NCBI GenBank assembly: GCA_031279555.1
Contig: JAITIK010000185.1
Span: forward strand, 1 to 34,428
Length of the DNA stretch: 34,428 bases
Direction: 5' to 3'
Source: Treponema sp.
GTDB lineage: Bacteria; Spirochaetota; Spirochaetia; Treponematales; Breznakiellaceae
Shown piece after piece: positions 3,836-34,428 of the stretch. The notes below the pieces were generated by a model. That model searched no databases and was not told where the DNA came from. It saw only the letters and a list, made by a program, of their open reading frames with translations. Position numbers and translations under genes: made by a program. Numbering within the stretch: the stretch's first letter is position 1; each line of letters opens with the position of its first letter.

Positions 3836-5578
3836 TTGTCTCCTACGAAGTGGCTTTTACATTACATGGGGAAAAAGCGGCTGAACCTCCTTGCGGGGTT
3901 GGTCTTGTCCGCTGTTTCCTCAGCGACGATCATCATCAATCCTATGCTCTCGCAGCGTCTGATTGATGATGTGGTGCTTCCCCAAAATACGGAGCCGTTG
4001 CTCCGTATTTTGGGGATTATGTTGATTGTACAGGTTCTACGCTTGAGCCTGCGCTATCTCATGATTGTCATATTGGAATTGAACAGCACAGATATGATGA
4101 CAAACATAAGACAGCGCATGTACGACATTATACAGGATCAGGACTACAAATTTCTCGATCAGTTTCGTACCGGCAACTTGATGACCCGTATGACAAGCGA
4201 TCTTGAGATGGCGCGTCACTCTCTTGCGTGGGTTTCTTCTCAGGTGGTGGACTCGATCTCTTTGTTCGGGTCGGCGCTTGTTTTCCTGTTGTTTGTCAAC
4301 TGGAAACTCGCGCTGTGCCTTGCGGTGACAACGCCCGTCATTTTATTTATAAGCTGCCGTTTTATCAGGCGGTTTCGTCCCCGCACCATGCTTCTGCGTA
4401 AAAAGCTCACCGAGTTGAGCGCCAAGGTGATGGAAAATATCGGAGGCAACCGCGTTGTCAAAGCGTTCGCCCGCGAGGAGTACGAGAAAGAGCGGTTTGA
4501 GCGTCATAACGCCGATTACCGCGACACGAGTTACGACAACGCCGTCATATCCGCGAAGTACCAGCCCTTGCTGGATATGTTGAGCCAACTGCTGCCGGTC
4601 ATCACCCTTATCGCGGGCGGTCTCTTCCTCATTGACGGCAGCATGACGCCTGGGCAGTATTTGGCGTTCTCCTCGCTGACTTGGGCTTTATCAAACCCCC
4701 TGCGTATGCTCGGCATGCTTCTTGCCGATTTGCAGCGCTTTCATGCCGCCGCGGCCATGATCATTGAGGTGTTCGAATCAAAGAGCGGCATTGTGGACAA
4801 GCCCGGCGCCATTAAGCTCATCCGTCCGTGCGGACGCATTGAGTTCAAACAAGTGTGTTTTTCCATTGACGGAAACCCGATTCTTGAAGACATTTCTTTT
4901 AAGGCTGAACCGGGTCAAACCATAGGCGTCCTGGGCGGCACGGGCGCGGGCAAAACTTCGCTCATCAATATGTTGCTGCGCTTTTATGAACCGACAAGCG
5001 GCGTAGTGTCGCTTGACGGAGTGAGCGTCGACAAGTACACGCTTTCCTCTCTGCGCAGGCGCGTGGGGCTTGCCATGCAGGATGTGTTTCTTTTCTCCGA
5101 TTCGGTTGAAGGCAACATTTCCTATGGAAGACCCGATCTTGATCACGATTCTATACGCACACGGGCTGTCCAGGCGGATGCCGATGGTTTCATCAGCGCG
5201 ATGGAAGACGGCTACAACACCCTTGTGGGAGAGCGCGGCGTGGGGCTGTCCGGCGGACAAAAACAACGCATCTCCCTTGCCCGCGCTCTTGCGGTGAAAC
5301 CGGCGGTTCTCATTCTCGATGACACCACGTCGGCGGTTGACAGTGAAACCGAGCGGTACATTCAGGAGCAACTTCGCCGCCTTGACTTTCCCTGCACCAA
5401 AATCATCATCGCCCAGCGCATCAGCAGCTTTCGGGGCGCGGACCTTATTCTCGTCATGGACAAGGGGCGCATCATTGAGCGCGGAACGCATGAAGAGTTG
5501 CTTGCGAACAAGGGCTTCTACCACTATATCTGGACGTTGCAATATGGCGTAGACGGCTCCGCTGGCGGCTTGGAATAG
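3836..5578 (+). CDS. ABC exporter half, degenerate-site subunit of a heterodimer
   Basis: Fused membrane and ATPase protein of the multidrug/lipid exporter type (MsbA/LmrC-like), 580 residues: six-helix transmembrane domain (about 1-310), then the nucleotide-binding domain. Walker A GGTGAGKT lies at about 367-374 and the signature LSGGQ at 471. Walker B reads LILDD, so the catalytic glutamate is replaced by Asp (about 496). The H-loop reads AQRIS, with Gln (about 527) in place of the switch His. These two replacements together are the mark of the degenerate-site subunit in heterodimeric exporters such as TM287/288 or LmrCD. The partner with complementary changes is encoded at 9011-10822. Start: TTG 3836 is one base after the glgP stop and would be translated by coupling; ATG 3866 is the alternative. 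Substrate cannot be told from sequence. Confidence 0.9.
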   Translation: MSPTKWLLHYMGKKRLNLLAGLVLSAVSSATIIINPMLSQRLIDDVVLPQNTEPLLRILGIMLIVQVLRLSLRYLMIVILELNSTDMMTNIRQRMYDIIQDQDYKFLDQFRTGNLMTRMTSDLEMARHSLAWVSSQVVDSISLFGSALVFLLFVNWKLALCLAVTTPVILFISCRFIRRFRPRTMLLRKKLTELSAKVMENIGGNRVVKAFAREEYEKERFERHNADYRDTSYDNAVISAKYQPLLDMLSQLLPVITLIAGGLFLIDGSMTPGQYLAFSSLTWALSNPLRMLGMLLADLQRFHAAAAMIIEVFESKSGIVDKPGAIKLIRPCGRIEFKQVCFSIDGNPILEDISFKAEPGQTIGVLGGTGAGKTSLINMLLRFYEPTSGVVSLDGVSVDKYTLSSLRRRVGLAMQDVFLFSDSVEGNISYGRPDLDHDSIRTRAVQADADGFISAMEDGYNTLVGERGVGLSGGQKQRISLARALAVKPAVLILDDTTSAVDSETERYIQEQLRRLDFPCTKIIIAQRISSFRGADLILVMDKGRIIERGTHEELLANKGFYHYIWTLQYGVDGSAGGLE

Positions 5579-5594
5579 CCACGGCTATTCCAAG
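5569..5594 (+). terminator. Perfect hairpin over the stop codon of the first ABC gene
   Basis: CTTGGAATAGC (5569-5579) pairs perfectly with GCTATTCCAAG (5584-5594) around a four-base loop; the TAG stop lies in the left arm. There is no T-run after it, so this is either a factor-assisted terminator or an mRNA 3'-end stabiliser. Confidence 0.45.
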
Positions 5595-5646
5595 TTCAGG
5601 GGGCAAGATATTCTTTCTATGATTAAACAACGCTATTTATTCTATA

Positions 5647-5756
5647 AATGAATCTCCCCGCCCTTGAAGGGCGGGTGTCTTGTACGTGGCGCTTTATGTA
5701 CGAGGTTCGGCGAACCTTCGGTTCGACTGTACGGAAATTATGCGCCTGTGAGTCCC
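5647..5756 (-). mobile_element. IS200/IS605-like 3' end relic (copy 1)
   Basis: On the minus strand a reading frame ends in QAHNF..VEPKVRRTS, followed by a hairpin of CCCGCCC (5658-5664) and GGGCGGG (5670-5676) in + coordinates. The same peptide and hairpin arrangement occurs at 24211-24334 in the opposite orientation (VEPNVRRIS). A short C-terminal transposon-protein tail followed by a GC-rich end hairpin resembles the right end of IS200/IS605 (TnpB-type) elements. No transposase body remains. The family assignment is by resemblance; the homology of the two copies is read directly from the sequence. Confidence 0.45.
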
Positions 5757-5793
5757 GCCGCCATTTTTTGTTGATGGATTTTTTATTAAGCGC

Positions 5794-5820
5794 GCTTGGA
5801 TCACCCATCTTGATCCAAGC
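5794..5820. repeat. Perfect 10-bp inverted repeat at the left edge of the array
   Basis: GCTTGGATCA (5794-5803) and TGATCCAAGC (5811-5820) are exact inverted copies around seven bases. The right arm is part of array unit 1, so the array begins with one extra, better-conserved palindrome. Confidence 0.7.
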
Positions 5821-6587
5821 GGGTGAACCGCCTTGATCCAGGCGGATCAAACGCCTTGATCCATTCGGATCAAACACCATGATCCAAGCGGGTGAACAGC
5901 CTATATCCAGACGGATCAAACGCCTTGATCCAGGCGGGTGAACAGCCTTGATCCATGCGGGTGAACAGCCTTGATCCAGGCGGATCAAACACCTTGATCC
6001 ATGCGGGTGAACAGCCTTGATCCATGCGGATCAAACACCTTGATCCAAGCGGATCAAACACCTTGATCCAAGCGGGTGAATAGCCTTAATCCAGACCGAT
6101 CAAACATCTTGCTCCACTCGGATCAACATCTTGCTCCAGACGGATCAACATCTTGCTCCAGACGGATCAAACGCCTTGATCCAAGCGGGTGAACCGCCTT
6201 GATCCAAGCGGATCAAACATCTTGCTCCAGACGGATCAAACGCCTTGATCCAGGCGGATCAAACACCTTGATCCAGGCGGATCAAACGCCTTGATCCAAG
6301 CGGGTGAACCGCCTAGATCCAGACGGTTCAAACATCTTGCTCCAAGCGGATCAAACACCTTGATCCGAGCGGGTGAACAGCCTTGATCCAGGCGGATCAA
6401 ACGCCTTGATCCATGCGGGTGAATCGCCTTGATCCAGACCGATCAAACATCTTGCTCCACTCGGATCAACATCTTGATCCAAGCGGGTGAACCGCCTTGA
6501 TCCAAGCGGATCAAACACCTTGATCCAAGCGGGTGAACCGCCTTGATCCAGACGGATCAAACGCCTTGATCCAGGCGGATCAAACGC
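5809..6587. repeat. 34-copy tandem array of 23-bp palindromic, GATC-rich units
   Basis: Counting by eye gives 34 head-to-tail units with no spacers: 31 of 23 bp and three of 22 bp (units 14, 15 and 29, starting at 6108, 6130 and 6451). Each unit is CTTGATCC, a four-base ANNC loop, and an 11-base right half. The right half comes in two classes: GGATCAA with an ACRC linker (class A), which pairs perfectly with TTGATCC, and GGGTGAA with a CMGC linker (class B), which pairs with one mismatch and one wobble. Class B is at units 1, 4, 6, 7, 9, 12, 17, 22, 25, 27, 30 and 32. A subset has TTGCTCC for TTGATCC, nearly always after a unit ending in CAT. Units 13-14 and 28-29 are almost identical pairs, so blocks of units were duplicated. 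About 47 GATC sites lie in 779 bp, 11 or 12 bp apart where both halves keep one. Function unknown; it lies between two halves of an ABC exporter. Confidence 0.95.
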
Positions 6588-6646
6588 CTTGCGCTTATTG
6601 ACCGGCTCGCCCCATTCCCGCTTTCTAACAAGCGCAGTCTACTAGA

Positions 6647-6671: not shown

Positions 6672-6714
6672 AAGATATTGAAATACGTACGTAATGAAAG
6701 AAAAGGAGCGACCC

Positions 6715-7137
6715 ATGACAAAAAAAATGAAAAGAACGGGCGCCGCGCCGCGCATGACGTTATGGATCGGGGCGGCTCTTTGCCGACAGAGCGCGAGGTT
6801 TCCCGATTTTCCCGCCGGCGGGTTCGGATGTGGAAAAGCCATGACGCTGGCTGATATGGCGTTGATGAAGCTGAACAAACTCACCTCCATGCGGTTCGCC
6901 AACGCGCTGGATGGGAAGGCTATAGCGGAGGCGCGGGTGGAAATACCCGGCGCCGGCGGCTTTGTTACGGCGATCAACAACCGGCATTCCATTTCAGCCG
7001 GATTGGACGGAGTGTTCCGGTTCGCGCTGGATTGGGGGAAAAGCCCGCCGGCTTCTTTACGCCGCGTTCACCGCGAAACGAAGAAAATGCCGGAAGAAAC
7101 CTCGCAACCGCCGGCGAATGTGACGGAGATCGCATAA
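6715..7137 (+). CDS. Small protein of unknown function, coupled to the CLC gene
   Basis: This 140-residue protein is not recognised. The ATG at 6715 has a good ribosome binding site (AAGGAG, 6703-6708, six bases away); an in-frame ATG at 6694 lacks one. The N-terminus is basic (MTKKMKRTG) with a short hydrophobic stretch (LWIGAAL) but no convincing signal peptide or lipobox. The middle part (GKAIAEARVEIPGAGGFVT, then SAGLDGVFRF) loosely resembles the beta-sandwich of carboxypeptidase-regulatory-like domains, where a GxxxxxARVEI strand is followed by a DGxFxF strand. That is a weak resemblance only. The stop is three bases before the CLC start, so the two genes are likely one transcript. It could be a regulatory or envelope partner of the antiporter, or a truncated remnant. 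Confidence 0.55.
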   Translation: MTKKMKRTGAAPRMTLWIGAALCRQSARFPDFPAGGFGCGKAMTLADMALMKLNKLTSMRFANALDGKAIAEARVEIPGAGGFVTAINNRHSISAGLDGVFRFALDWGKSPPASLRRVHRETKKMPEETSQPPANVTEIA

Positions 7138-7140
7138 CGT

Positions 7141-8505
7141 ATGGATTATCCGCGATTGATTCATTTTACACCCCGTCCTGATTCAAAGGGGCGGATAAAA
7201 CGGACGCTCGATGCATGGTACGCCTCCCGTCTGGCGGTTATTGTTGAAAGCGTCATTATCGGGTTGGCCGCCGGTTTCGTGATCGCCGGCTTCCGCTTCG
7301 CGTTGCGTCAAGCTGACAGCTTCCGTCCGCGGCTGTATGACGCGCTCAAAACGTTCCCCGCCTATTGGACGGTTTTGTGGGCGTTTGCCCTTGCGGCGCT
7401 CGGCGCGGCGCTTGGACTGGCGGCGCGCCGGTTTCCCATGATAAAGGGCAGCGGCATCCCACAGATCAAAGGCAGCCTGACGGGGCGGATGGCGCTTGCG
7501 TGGGCGCCGGAGTTGCCGCTGAAACTCATCACCGGCATTGCGGGACTCGGCGCGGGGCTGTCGCTTGGACGGGAAGGCCCCTCAATTCAGATCGCCGCGT
7601 ATGTGGGCATTGGAATTCTCACCCTTTTCAGACGCCCCCGCGCGGAGCGTAAAGTCCTTGTCAGCGCAGCCGCCGCGGCAGGTCTTTCCGCGGCGTTCAA
7701 CGCGCCCCTCGCGGGCGTCCTTTTCGCGCTTGAGGAGATGCGATTGCGTTTTTCGCCGCTTTCTCTGGCGTGCGCGATGGGATCTTCCATATCAGCGGCG
7801 GCGGCGGCCAGTTTCTTTTTTGGACAGGCGCCGGTTTTCGATTTCCGCTATGTCGCCCCGTTGCCCTTGCGCCATATCCCGTGGATAATCCTGTTGGGCA
7901 TACTCTGCGCGTTGCTGGGGGATGTTTTCAAACGCTCGCTGTATCTTTCTCAAGACTTTTATCAGAAACTCCGTATCCATCAAATTATCCGCCCTATTTT
8001 GCCATTGCTGCTCTCCATTCCGCTCGGTCTTTACCTGTATGACAGTACCGGCGGCGGGCATACTGTAATCGAATCGCTTTCCATAGAAAACCGCACCCTA
8101 CAAACGTTGATGACGCTCTTTGTGGGAAAGCTGCTTTTTACGGCGGTTAGTTACGGTTCCGGCGCGTCGGGAGGCATTTTTCTGCCGCTTCTTACCTGCG
8201 GCGCGCTTCTAGGCGACCTATCGGGCGATTTGCTCTACAAGTCCGGTTTTATTGCAGACGGGCAAAACTTGAATTACATGATTCTTGGCATGGCGGCTTT
8301 TTTCTCGGCTGTGGTAAAAGCTCCGGTAACTGGCGTGGCGCTCATTTTGGAGATGAGCGGCAACTTCAACCACTTGGGCAGTCTTGTACTCGCAAGCCTC
8401 GCGGCGTTTGTCACCTCGGAACTCATCGCTTCGCCTCCGGTGTATGCCGCGCTTTTGGAGCGGATGCTGGCGGGGCTGAGAAAAAGCGGGAATGCCGCCG
8501 GATGA
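7141..8505 (+). CDS. CLC-family H+/Cl- exchange transporter
   Basis: Inner-membrane protein of 454 residues in the CLC family, whose bacterial members exchange two chloride ions for one proton and serve pH or acid tolerance. The selectivity motifs are visible: GSGIPQIKG near the N-terminus, GREGP with the gating glutamate at about residue 145, GGIFLPLL, and a tyrosine in PPVYAALL (about 435) at the position of the chloride-coordinating Tyr445 of the E. coli protein. LFALEEM (about 195-200) keeps both glutamates, the second (about 199) corresponding to the internal proton glutamate E203. An antiporter is therefore more likely than a channel. There is no C-terminal CBS domain, as usual for bacterial transporters. 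Start ATG lies three bases after the upstream stop. Confidence 0.93.
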   Translation: MDYPRLIHFTPRPDSKGRIKRTLDAWYASRLAVIVESVIIGLAAGFVIAGFRFALRQADSFRPRLYDALKTFPAYWTVLWAFALAALGAALGLAARRFPMIKGSGIPQIKGSLTGRMALAWAPELPLKLITGIAGLGAGLSLGREGPSIQIAAYVGIGILTLFRRPRAERKVLVSAAAAAGLSAAFNAPLAGVLFALEEMRLRFSPLSLACAMGSSISAAAAASFFFGQAPVFDFRYVAPLPLRHIPWIILLGILCALLGDVFKRSLYLSQDFYQKLRIHQIIRPILPLLLSIPLGLYLYDSTGGGHTVIESLSIENRTLQTLMTLFVGKLLFTAVSYGSGASGGIFLPLLTCGALLGDLSGDLLYKSGFIADGQNLNYMILGMAAFFSAVVKAPVTGVALILEMSGNFNHLGSLVLASLAAFVTSELIASPPVYAALLERMLAGLRKSGNAAG

Positions 8506-33654: not shown

Positions 33655-34428
33655 CTATACCAAACCCAACTCCGAGAAGAGTTTTTTATAGGTGTCAAAA
33701 TATTTTGACGCCGCGAATTCTTCAATTTTTTCTTCGGGCAAAGATTCCAGCAACTGATCCATGTAGGAAAGAACGGTCTTGAGTTCCTGTTGAATGGTGG
33801 ACGGTATTGCGTTCAACTTTGCGACTGGCCCGGCTGAAGCCGCAGGTCCGGAAGCCGTTTCAGCCGGAATAGCCGCGCTTTCCGTAGGTTCTTTCCCTGT
33901 GGGAAGGGATTCTTCAACCGGATGTTTTTCCGTTGCCGACTCCGCCGGTTCTTCTTCGGAAATGGCCTCCCTAGCGGAATATTCTTCCGCAACCGGGCGC
34001 TCCGTAGATTCTTCCTCTTCGAAAATAGGTTCCTCAACGGAATATTCTTCCGCCGCCGCCTCTTCCTCTTTGGGAAGGAATTCCTCAGCGGAGTATTCTT
34101 CCGCAACCGGGCGCTCCGTAGATTCTTCCTCTTCGAAAATGGGTTCCCCAACGGAATATTCTTCCGCCGCCTCTTCTTCAGGCATTTCCTCTAACGGCTC
34201 TTCCCCGGTATCTTCCCGCTCGGAAATCTCCACTGTTTCTCTATCCACAGGCAGATGATCTTCATCGGAAAGGTTCAAAGGCATATCATCAAAGGCAATA
34301 GCTTCAAGAACAGGTTCCTGCAATGGATTTTCCTGCAATTGGCCTGAAAGATCCGGCTCATCTATGATCACATCAGAAAGATCGATGTCTTCGGCCTCCA
34401 GTTCATGCTCTGCGGCGGGATCCGCTTC
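33655..34428 (-). CDS. Acidic repeat protein, 5' end beyond the window
   Basis: The frame is open to the window edge, so the protein is partial (258 residues visible). It is extremely rich in Glu, Pro and Ser, with a 38-residue repeat (EEYSV.EPIFEEEESTERP) present twice and shorter EEYSAEE-like echoes, then a small, better ordered C-terminal domain (LNAIPSTIQQELKTVLSYM, then LPEEKIEEFAASKYFD). The first 150 or so residues are probably disordered. No catalytic motif or signal is visible. Position upstream of two Maf-like genes hints at a flagellar or envelope link, by context only. A GTG at 34371 could be an internal start. Confidence 0.7.
   Translation of the reverse strand, partial: EADPAAEHELEAEDIDLSDVIIDEPDLSGQLQENPLQEPVLEAIAFDDMPLNLSDEDHLPVDRETVEISEREDTGEEPLEEMPEEEAAEEYSVGEPIFEEEESTERPVAEEYSAEEFLPKEEEAAAEEYSVEEPIFEEEESTERPVAEEYSAREAISEEEPAESATEKHPVEESLPTGKEPTESAAIPAETASGPAASAGPVAKLNAIPSTIQQELKTVLSYMDQLLESLPEEKIEEFAASKYFDTYKKLFSELGLV
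33977..34171. repeat. 114-bp tandem duplication within the acidic protein gene
   Basis: Two 81-bp copies, 33977-34057 and 34091-34171, differ at only a few positions and are offset by 114 bases (38 codons). Near identity at DNA level shows a recent duplication or ongoing slippage; the offset keeps the reading frame. Confidence 0.85.

Follow-up and report, generated by a model that had tools for sequence, protein, structure and literature searches.

In bacteria of two phyla, from the gut, termites and the mouth, arrays of 23-bp palindromes usually lie just 3' of a gene for an HU/IHF-like protein, and the long array in the Treponema contig analysed here very probably belongs to this gene-linked class, whose period is 22-24 bp. 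The protein, designated here as HU-DUF4469, joins an IHF/HU-like N-terminus (HU-DNA_bdg, PF14848) to an Ig-like DUF4469 domain (PF14734), and its association with arrays in both phyla offers a first concrete and testable partner for a family of unknown function. Moreover, arrays stand ahead of surface genes, such as lrrA in T. denticola and fimbrillin-like genes in Parabacteroides, and may bear on how the cell surface is set; they also present a case where the palindromicity of the DNA, not its sequence, appears to be kept by evolution. Within the open-licence literature the class is apparently undescribed, and it would be new as a gene-linked repeat class: no mention of DUF4469 was found in open-licence papers, while one 2025 paper on T. 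denticola assigns PF14848 and PF14734 to TDE_2259 and, in the portion of its text available, names no array there. An earlier reading of the sequence alone had presented the array as one without a known class, which holds in that no description of such a class was found in the literature and gives way in that the array belongs with those that follow HU-DUF4469 genes.

The array in the window and its neighbourhood

The window, that is the whole stretch of 34,428 nucleotides under analysis, is contig C171 of a Treponema MAG, read here as one from the termite gut (G000; 2.9 Mb in 207 contigs, 93% complete), and the features around its array are collected in Table 1. TRF gave the array a period of 23, 34.2 copies, 78% matches and a score of 789, and the pattern TTGATCC-N4-GGATCAA with at most two mismatches was matched 33 times in the window versus 0.15 expected by chance, so the claimed tandem array is real, although the exact copy number of 34 and the order of units are, in a short-read MAG, as assembled and not confirmed. 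GATC occurs 47 times in 779 bp versus 2.9 expected. There are 22 distinct units, and three of the units are 22 bp long. The left half, which had been stated to be TTGATCC in every unit, is so in only 24 of the 34, with TTGCTCC in six and other forms in four; the right half is GGATCAA in 19, GGGTGAA in 12, CGATCAA in two and GGTTCAA in one. The two proposed classes of right half are thus indeed present, but GGATCAA pairs with TTGATCC at all seven positions while the GGGTGAA class pairs at only 4-5 of seven, so that class B is a broken palindrome and not a second symmetric class. Likewise the two interlocked palindrome sets described before (N4 inside units, N5 over their borders) are real, but they are the automatic outcome of repeating one palindrome in tandem. 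The similarity between units peaks at lags of 3, 5, 8, 10, 13 and 15 units, which shows duplication of multi-unit blocks.

Table 1. Array region of the window: features, positions and strands.
Feature	Positions	Strand	Sequence or remark	Basis
ABC transporter permease/ATPase (MsbA-like)	3836-5578	+	left neighbour, not HU-DUF4469	
Intergenic spacer left of array	5579-5808	.	expected HU-DUF4469 site; no gene or remnant found; hairpin 5657-5675	
Partial unit preceding array at left edge	5798-5809	+	GGATCACCCATC (= GGATCACCC-ATC)	read directly
Tandem array, 34 units	5809-6591	+	unit (ACRCC linker)-TTGATCC-N4-GGATCAA	TRF, palindrome pattern, unit table
Class B unit, example	5810-5832	+	TTGATCC AAGC GGGTGAA CCGCC	12/34 units; 4-5/7 arm pairs
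Class A unit, example	5833-5855	+	TTGATCC AGGC GGATCAA ACGCC	perfect 7-bp arms
Class C unit, example, 22 bp	6131-6152	+	TTGCTCC AGAC GGATCAA CATC	unit table
Right neighbour ORF	6694-7137	+	truncated copy of ~270-aa signal-peptide protein family	
ClcA-like chloride/proton antiporter	7141-8505	+	close homologue in G006	

No open frame crosses the array, which is noncoding, and no Rfam covariance model matched in the window. Terminator-like sites in the region number four versus 2.3 ± 1.6 by chance, two of them being weak calls on the - strand inside the array, where no + strand site with a GC-rich stem and a T-run was found. As the sequence-only reading had it, neither CRISPR spacers nor an IS nor a REP/BIME layout fits this array: its units abut with no unique spacers, and in its own genome the unit forms three array loci, with single matches at about the level of a reversed-pattern control.

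The suggested search for the unit consensus in the own genome and in relatives brought out several further loci, some of them HU-linked. In the own genome these are C192 (6 copies) and C133 (5 copies): the C133 array begins 63 bp past the stop of an intact gene for HU-DNA_bdg plus DUF4469, and at C192 a degenerate HU-DUF4469 copy directly borders the array. Among relatives, the unit stands beside an HU-DUF4469 gene in G002 and beside an HU remnant in G006, and its other copies have no HU-DUF4469 gene nearby, as in the window. All public-genome contigs with this repeat come from Treponema MAGs, whose isolate codes we read as termite codes. The + strand of the window carries the linker in the orientation of the gene-sense strand at the HU-linked C133 copy (comparison with L117/C133).

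As to its place in the class, the window array has a period within 22-24 bp and a palindromic unit (fully so in class A, partly in class B), and no HU-DUF4469 gene or remnant adjoins it. It is best read as an orphan of the class, expanded here or contracted in G006, a name that follows from sequence kinship, since copies of its unit at C133 and in G002 do adjoin an HU-DUF4469 gene. The ClcA protein of G006 is 88% identical to that of the window, and upstream of its gene there is one repeat unit versus 34 here; the right flank of the single unit matches that of the window (CCTTGATCC-GGCT-GGATCAAGCGACCTGCGCCTATTAACCGGCTCGC) and the left side differs, so the orthology of the locus is supported on the right only. 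Such an orphan could still serve as a binding site for HU proteins encoded elsewhere, or could be relaxed debris, as the lost pairing of class B units would suggest.

Other observations were made around this locus. The ORF at 6694-7137, without a Pfam domain match, is a probable pseudogene, intact copies of its family being found in relatives. Left of the array there is a perfect 8-bp hairpin, CCCGCCCTTGAAGGGCGGG, and G006 has a similar sequence, CACCCTTGAAGGCGGG, on the left of its single unit; the window hairpin resembles IS200/IS605-type ends. Far from the array, a 63/114-bp coding repeat (33949-34179) lies inside a Glu-rich ORF (33655-34371, -).

Linkage of the arrays to HU-DUF4469 genes

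About 13 DUF4469 matches were found in the own genome, and at least eight HU-DUF4469 genes there have a 23-bp array directly after them, with a different unit at each. In 30 genomes of the host's family, which otherwise consists largely of fragmented drafts, a 22-24 bp array was found at 70 of 98 distinct HU-DUF4469 genes (62 of exactly 23 bp), starting at a median of 15 bp past the stop codon. Of 519 other ORFs with 150 or more codons, drawn from 0.74 Mb of the window's genome, no more than six had such an array; these six include the one in the window, and two more are HU-linked arrays seen from the convergent gene. The odds ratio is about 220, and Fisher's test, run with 97 genes, gives a p of about 5e-62, a value that overstates independence because HU-DUF4469 genes within a genome are paralogs. 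Moreover, a 23-bp autocorrelation of at least 0.65 is seen in 60 of 92 downstream flanks versus 2 of 70 upstream flanks of HU-DUF4469 genes.

The same arrangement extends beyond the host's family. In a neighbouring family (f3), which we read as Treponemataceae, 23 of 41 HU-DUF4469 loci have an array, many of them in complete genomes including G278, taken here as T. denticola ATCC 35405. In one strain of Parabacteroides distasonis all five HU-DUF4469 genes are followed after the stop by a 23- or 24-bp array, on records that are labelled plasmids and look like contigs of one assembly. No TRF array was detected at about 28% of the HU-DUF4469 genes in the host's family and at 18 of the 41 Treponemataceae loci; some of the array-less loci show a decayed 23-bp periodicity and some are truncated where the contig stops.

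A profile of eight HU-DUF4469 proteins matched 4FMR in the PDB with E = 7e-63, and its N-terminal domain weakly matched IHF-beta, HU and TF1 (E 0.013-0.8). Paralogs diverge mostly towards the 3' end of the gene, beside the array, and their differences show no adenine bias.

On the other side of the array, the next ORF is codirectional in 62 of 85 chosen cases. Among these 62 ORFs, 35 resemble signal-peptide genes and 21 carry a lipobox, versus 78 and 17 of 498 control genes, as judged by a crude hydropathy rule with control genes from one genome. Pfam matches in the downstream genes include BspA-type leucine-rich repeats, FGE-type domains, fn3 and fimbrillin-like proteins.

Several further observations touch on these genes and repeats. 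The 3' end of FGE-domain lipoproteins occurs at ten places in G278 (among them the gene downstream of L275, and 2304677-2305158), two such ends lie 170 bp apart, which suggests a DGR template/variable pair, and HU-array modules stand upstream of some members. A scan of viral contigs with two HU-DUF4469 proteins found no relatives. Two unannotated 'Bacteriophage sp.' records, L234 and L235 (MT836435.1, MT838150.1), carry HU-DUF4469 genes with no TRF array after the stop, L234 having a lipoprotein-like ORF downstream, and are possibly bacterial DNA in phage records. At L133 (G000:C22) and L140 (C188), HU-DNA_bdg genes with no DUF4469 match detected run to contig ends, and one of them adjoins an 81-bp coding repeat of an adhesin-like gene. 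Further arrays of 21-23 bp with other units occur in the own genome (L057, L058, L068, L085, L089, L091, L111) and in relatives (L027, L046, L048, L053, L055), several at contig ends; a reading frame is often open through those of 21 bp, which may be coding repeats. A 34/35-bp repeat family (CCCCAAAGGGGCTATGTTGCC...) is found at L039:18531-18756 and L092:13548-13905, at one of these upstream of the C133 HU-DUF4469 gene.

Conserved complementarity and its possible causes

The consensus units are more palindromic than shuffled units, with a mean of 6.87 best pairs versus 5.82 ± 0.10, and changes within arrays comprise 56 compensated double changes versus 161 single ones. Alignment of 55 units of the T. 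denticola clade on the loop RCRTAR shows pairing at 0.51-0.73 over stem positions 4-9, versus 0.22-0.35 once arms from different loci are matched with each other (z 3-8); each position uses several types of pair, the loop being kept while the arms change in compensated pairs. Three paralogs in G100 (L142, L170 and L171) have near-identical HU domains and array arms of TTGATC/GATCAA, TTCACA/TGTGAA and TTTAAG/CTTAAA, respectively, which indicates that complementarity persists and sequence does not. RCRTAR also coincides with the last codon and stop codon of the HU-DUF4469 gene in 22 of 41 genes, and the loops of the array keep an exact 23-bp phase with it at 10 of 24 loci, hence the end of the gene is often unit zero of the array.

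The best model overall, to which we give somewhat less than an even chance, is that of cruciform- or hairpin-prone sites bound by an HU-like protein and acting in cis. HU proteins bind kinked and cruciform DNA. Each unit would be a kinkable palindrome able to extrude a hairpin or a cruciform, and the neighbouring HU/IHF-family protein would bind it by reading its shape and not the sequence of its arms; the regular 23-bp spacing would allow an ordered complex of bound dimers to form in the stretch that separates the HU gene from the next gene, and this complex would set the expression of the latter, often a secreted protein or a lipoprotein. That the unit is a DNA-structure site for the HU-like protein is quite plausible, if slightly short of an even bet; that the array controls the downstream surface gene is possible and should be held more loosely. 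We regard it as rather unlikely, and still worth stating, that HU-DUF4469 and its array form a widespread two-part chromatin module in Spirochaetota and Bacteroidota that switches adjacent surface-protein genes, and we are similarly doubtful that in such a module a nucleoid-type protein builds an ordered complex on its own cruciform array, recognised by structure. The joint fall of TDE_2259 and TDE_2258 in a trtA mutant, given below with the RNA element, counts for the best model too. Counting against the best model, the window array has no HU gene and a third of its units are imperfect-armed.

The earlier proposal of two half-site types for a dimeric protein stands in so far as an HU/IHF-like protein, of a dimer-forming type, is genetically linked to the arrays, but not as regards the two half-site types. 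A conventional operator array, with fixed half-sites for a sequence-specific dimeric regulator, would agree with the linked DNA-binding gene and with a palindromic symmetry whose arm centres are about one helical turn apart; yet arms that are wholly different between loci with near-identical HU domains, free as long as they are complementary, mean that fixed half-sites are not kept, and class B breaks the palindrome, which makes this reading very improbable. For a recombination hotspot, a segregation site or a protein sink, also named at that time, no direct support was found; an attenuating array, named there as well, stays among the possible, if unlikely, readings. A site of recombination or mobility, where the array and the HU-like architectural protein promote the exchange or movement of surface-protein cassettes, would account for 0-16 copies per genome, for the concentration of paralog divergence beside the array, for the integrase adjoining one P. 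distasonis locus and for the FGE/TvpA-like lipoprotein paralogs downstream in G278. However, homology between close paralogs stops near gene boundaries with no shared element ends, no recombinase is common to the array neighbourhoods and no reverse transcriptase was found in the genome of the window, so that we think it improbable.

More weight, although still as unlikely readings, is given to an RNA element and to a non-adaptive minisatellite. In the former, the HU and surface genes would form one operon with the array as its transcribed spacer, whose hairpins would act on the mRNA by attenuation, stabilisation or processing. The arrays come after the stop on the coding side and occupy the whole interval before the next ribosome site in T. 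denticola, and the loop GCATAR is read 37 times from the coding strand and seven times in the opposite orientation, both in favour of such an element. So is the joint change of TDE_2259 (HU-DUF4469) and TDE_2258 (lrrA) by -5.18 and -5.69 log2 in a trtA mutant (PMC12724145), as well as a 20-fold fall of TDE_2258 in another mutant (PMC7586716); locus L273 is probably this pair, as assigned from position and domains and not from an annotation record. On the other hand, selection on mRNA hairpins would give more G.T than A.C mismatches on the coding strand, and no significant excess is seen (90 versus 63, in 30 versus 20 arrays, p = 0.20; 17 versus 21 in the T. denticola clade), therefore an RNA-like bias is not supported. 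Sense and antisense folding of the arrays show no significant difference, RNA hairpins need no constant 23-nt spacing, and the window array has no + strand intrinsic-terminator layout with a T-run. As for the minisatellite, hairpin-driven slippage would multiply a functionless unit and template switching would keep its arms complementary; indeed complementary arms of free sequence could arise without selection by template-switch correction of quasi-palindromes, which yields compensated arms without strand bias. The block duplications in the window, the single unit of G006 beside the 34 here and the fast turnover of unit sequences are all in line with this, but it leaves unexplained why arrays of the same 23-bp period follow HU-DUF4469 stops in two phyla, and why the loop is conserved and its phase agrees with the stop codon at 10 of 24 loci.

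Comparison with known systems

The DGR target of the Bordetella phage BPP-1 has a 24-bp inverted repeat at the stop codon (Guo et al. 2011, PMC3240598), and it is like the present arrays in that the stem matters by structure with its sequence free, the loop is sequence-dependent and the structure forms in supercoiled DNA. It differs in being a single copy that needs a reverse transcriptase with TR/VR, the arrays here being tandem. A free stem with a conserved loop near the stop is seen in the T. denticola clade and not in the window array. For the genome of the window a DGR was rejected, as reverse transcriptase (PF00078) is absent at E <= 1e-3 in G000 (93% complete) and paralog differences show no adenine-specific variation.

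REP/BIME elements with RAYT are also short palindromes tied to a particular gene, but there the linked protein, RAYT, is a Y1 transposase and the REPs number many scattered copies, unlike the window unit with three loci in its genome; no transposase or RAYT was recognised among the window neighbours. The parR/parC centromeres share tandem repeats beside the gene for a dimeric DNA-binding protein, whereas here there are many chromosomal copies with a different repeat sequence at each locus, and no shared partition NTPase emerged in the clustering of array neighbours. With bacterial minisatellites (VNTR) the arrays have in common a tandem unit, block duplications and a copy number of 1 versus 34 between relatives; they differ in being gene-linked across phyla, with a fixed period and compensated palindromes. 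Finally, the sites of IHF/HU (DNABII) proteins are comparable through the HU/IHF-like N-terminal domain of the array-linked protein, and ATCAA-N5-TTGAT in the window unit resembles what we take to be the IHF half-consensus WATCAA...TTR; the arrays here are distinguished by linkage to the gene of their own presumed protein, by a regular 23-bp period, by variable arms and by a protein with an extra Ig-like DUF4469 domain.
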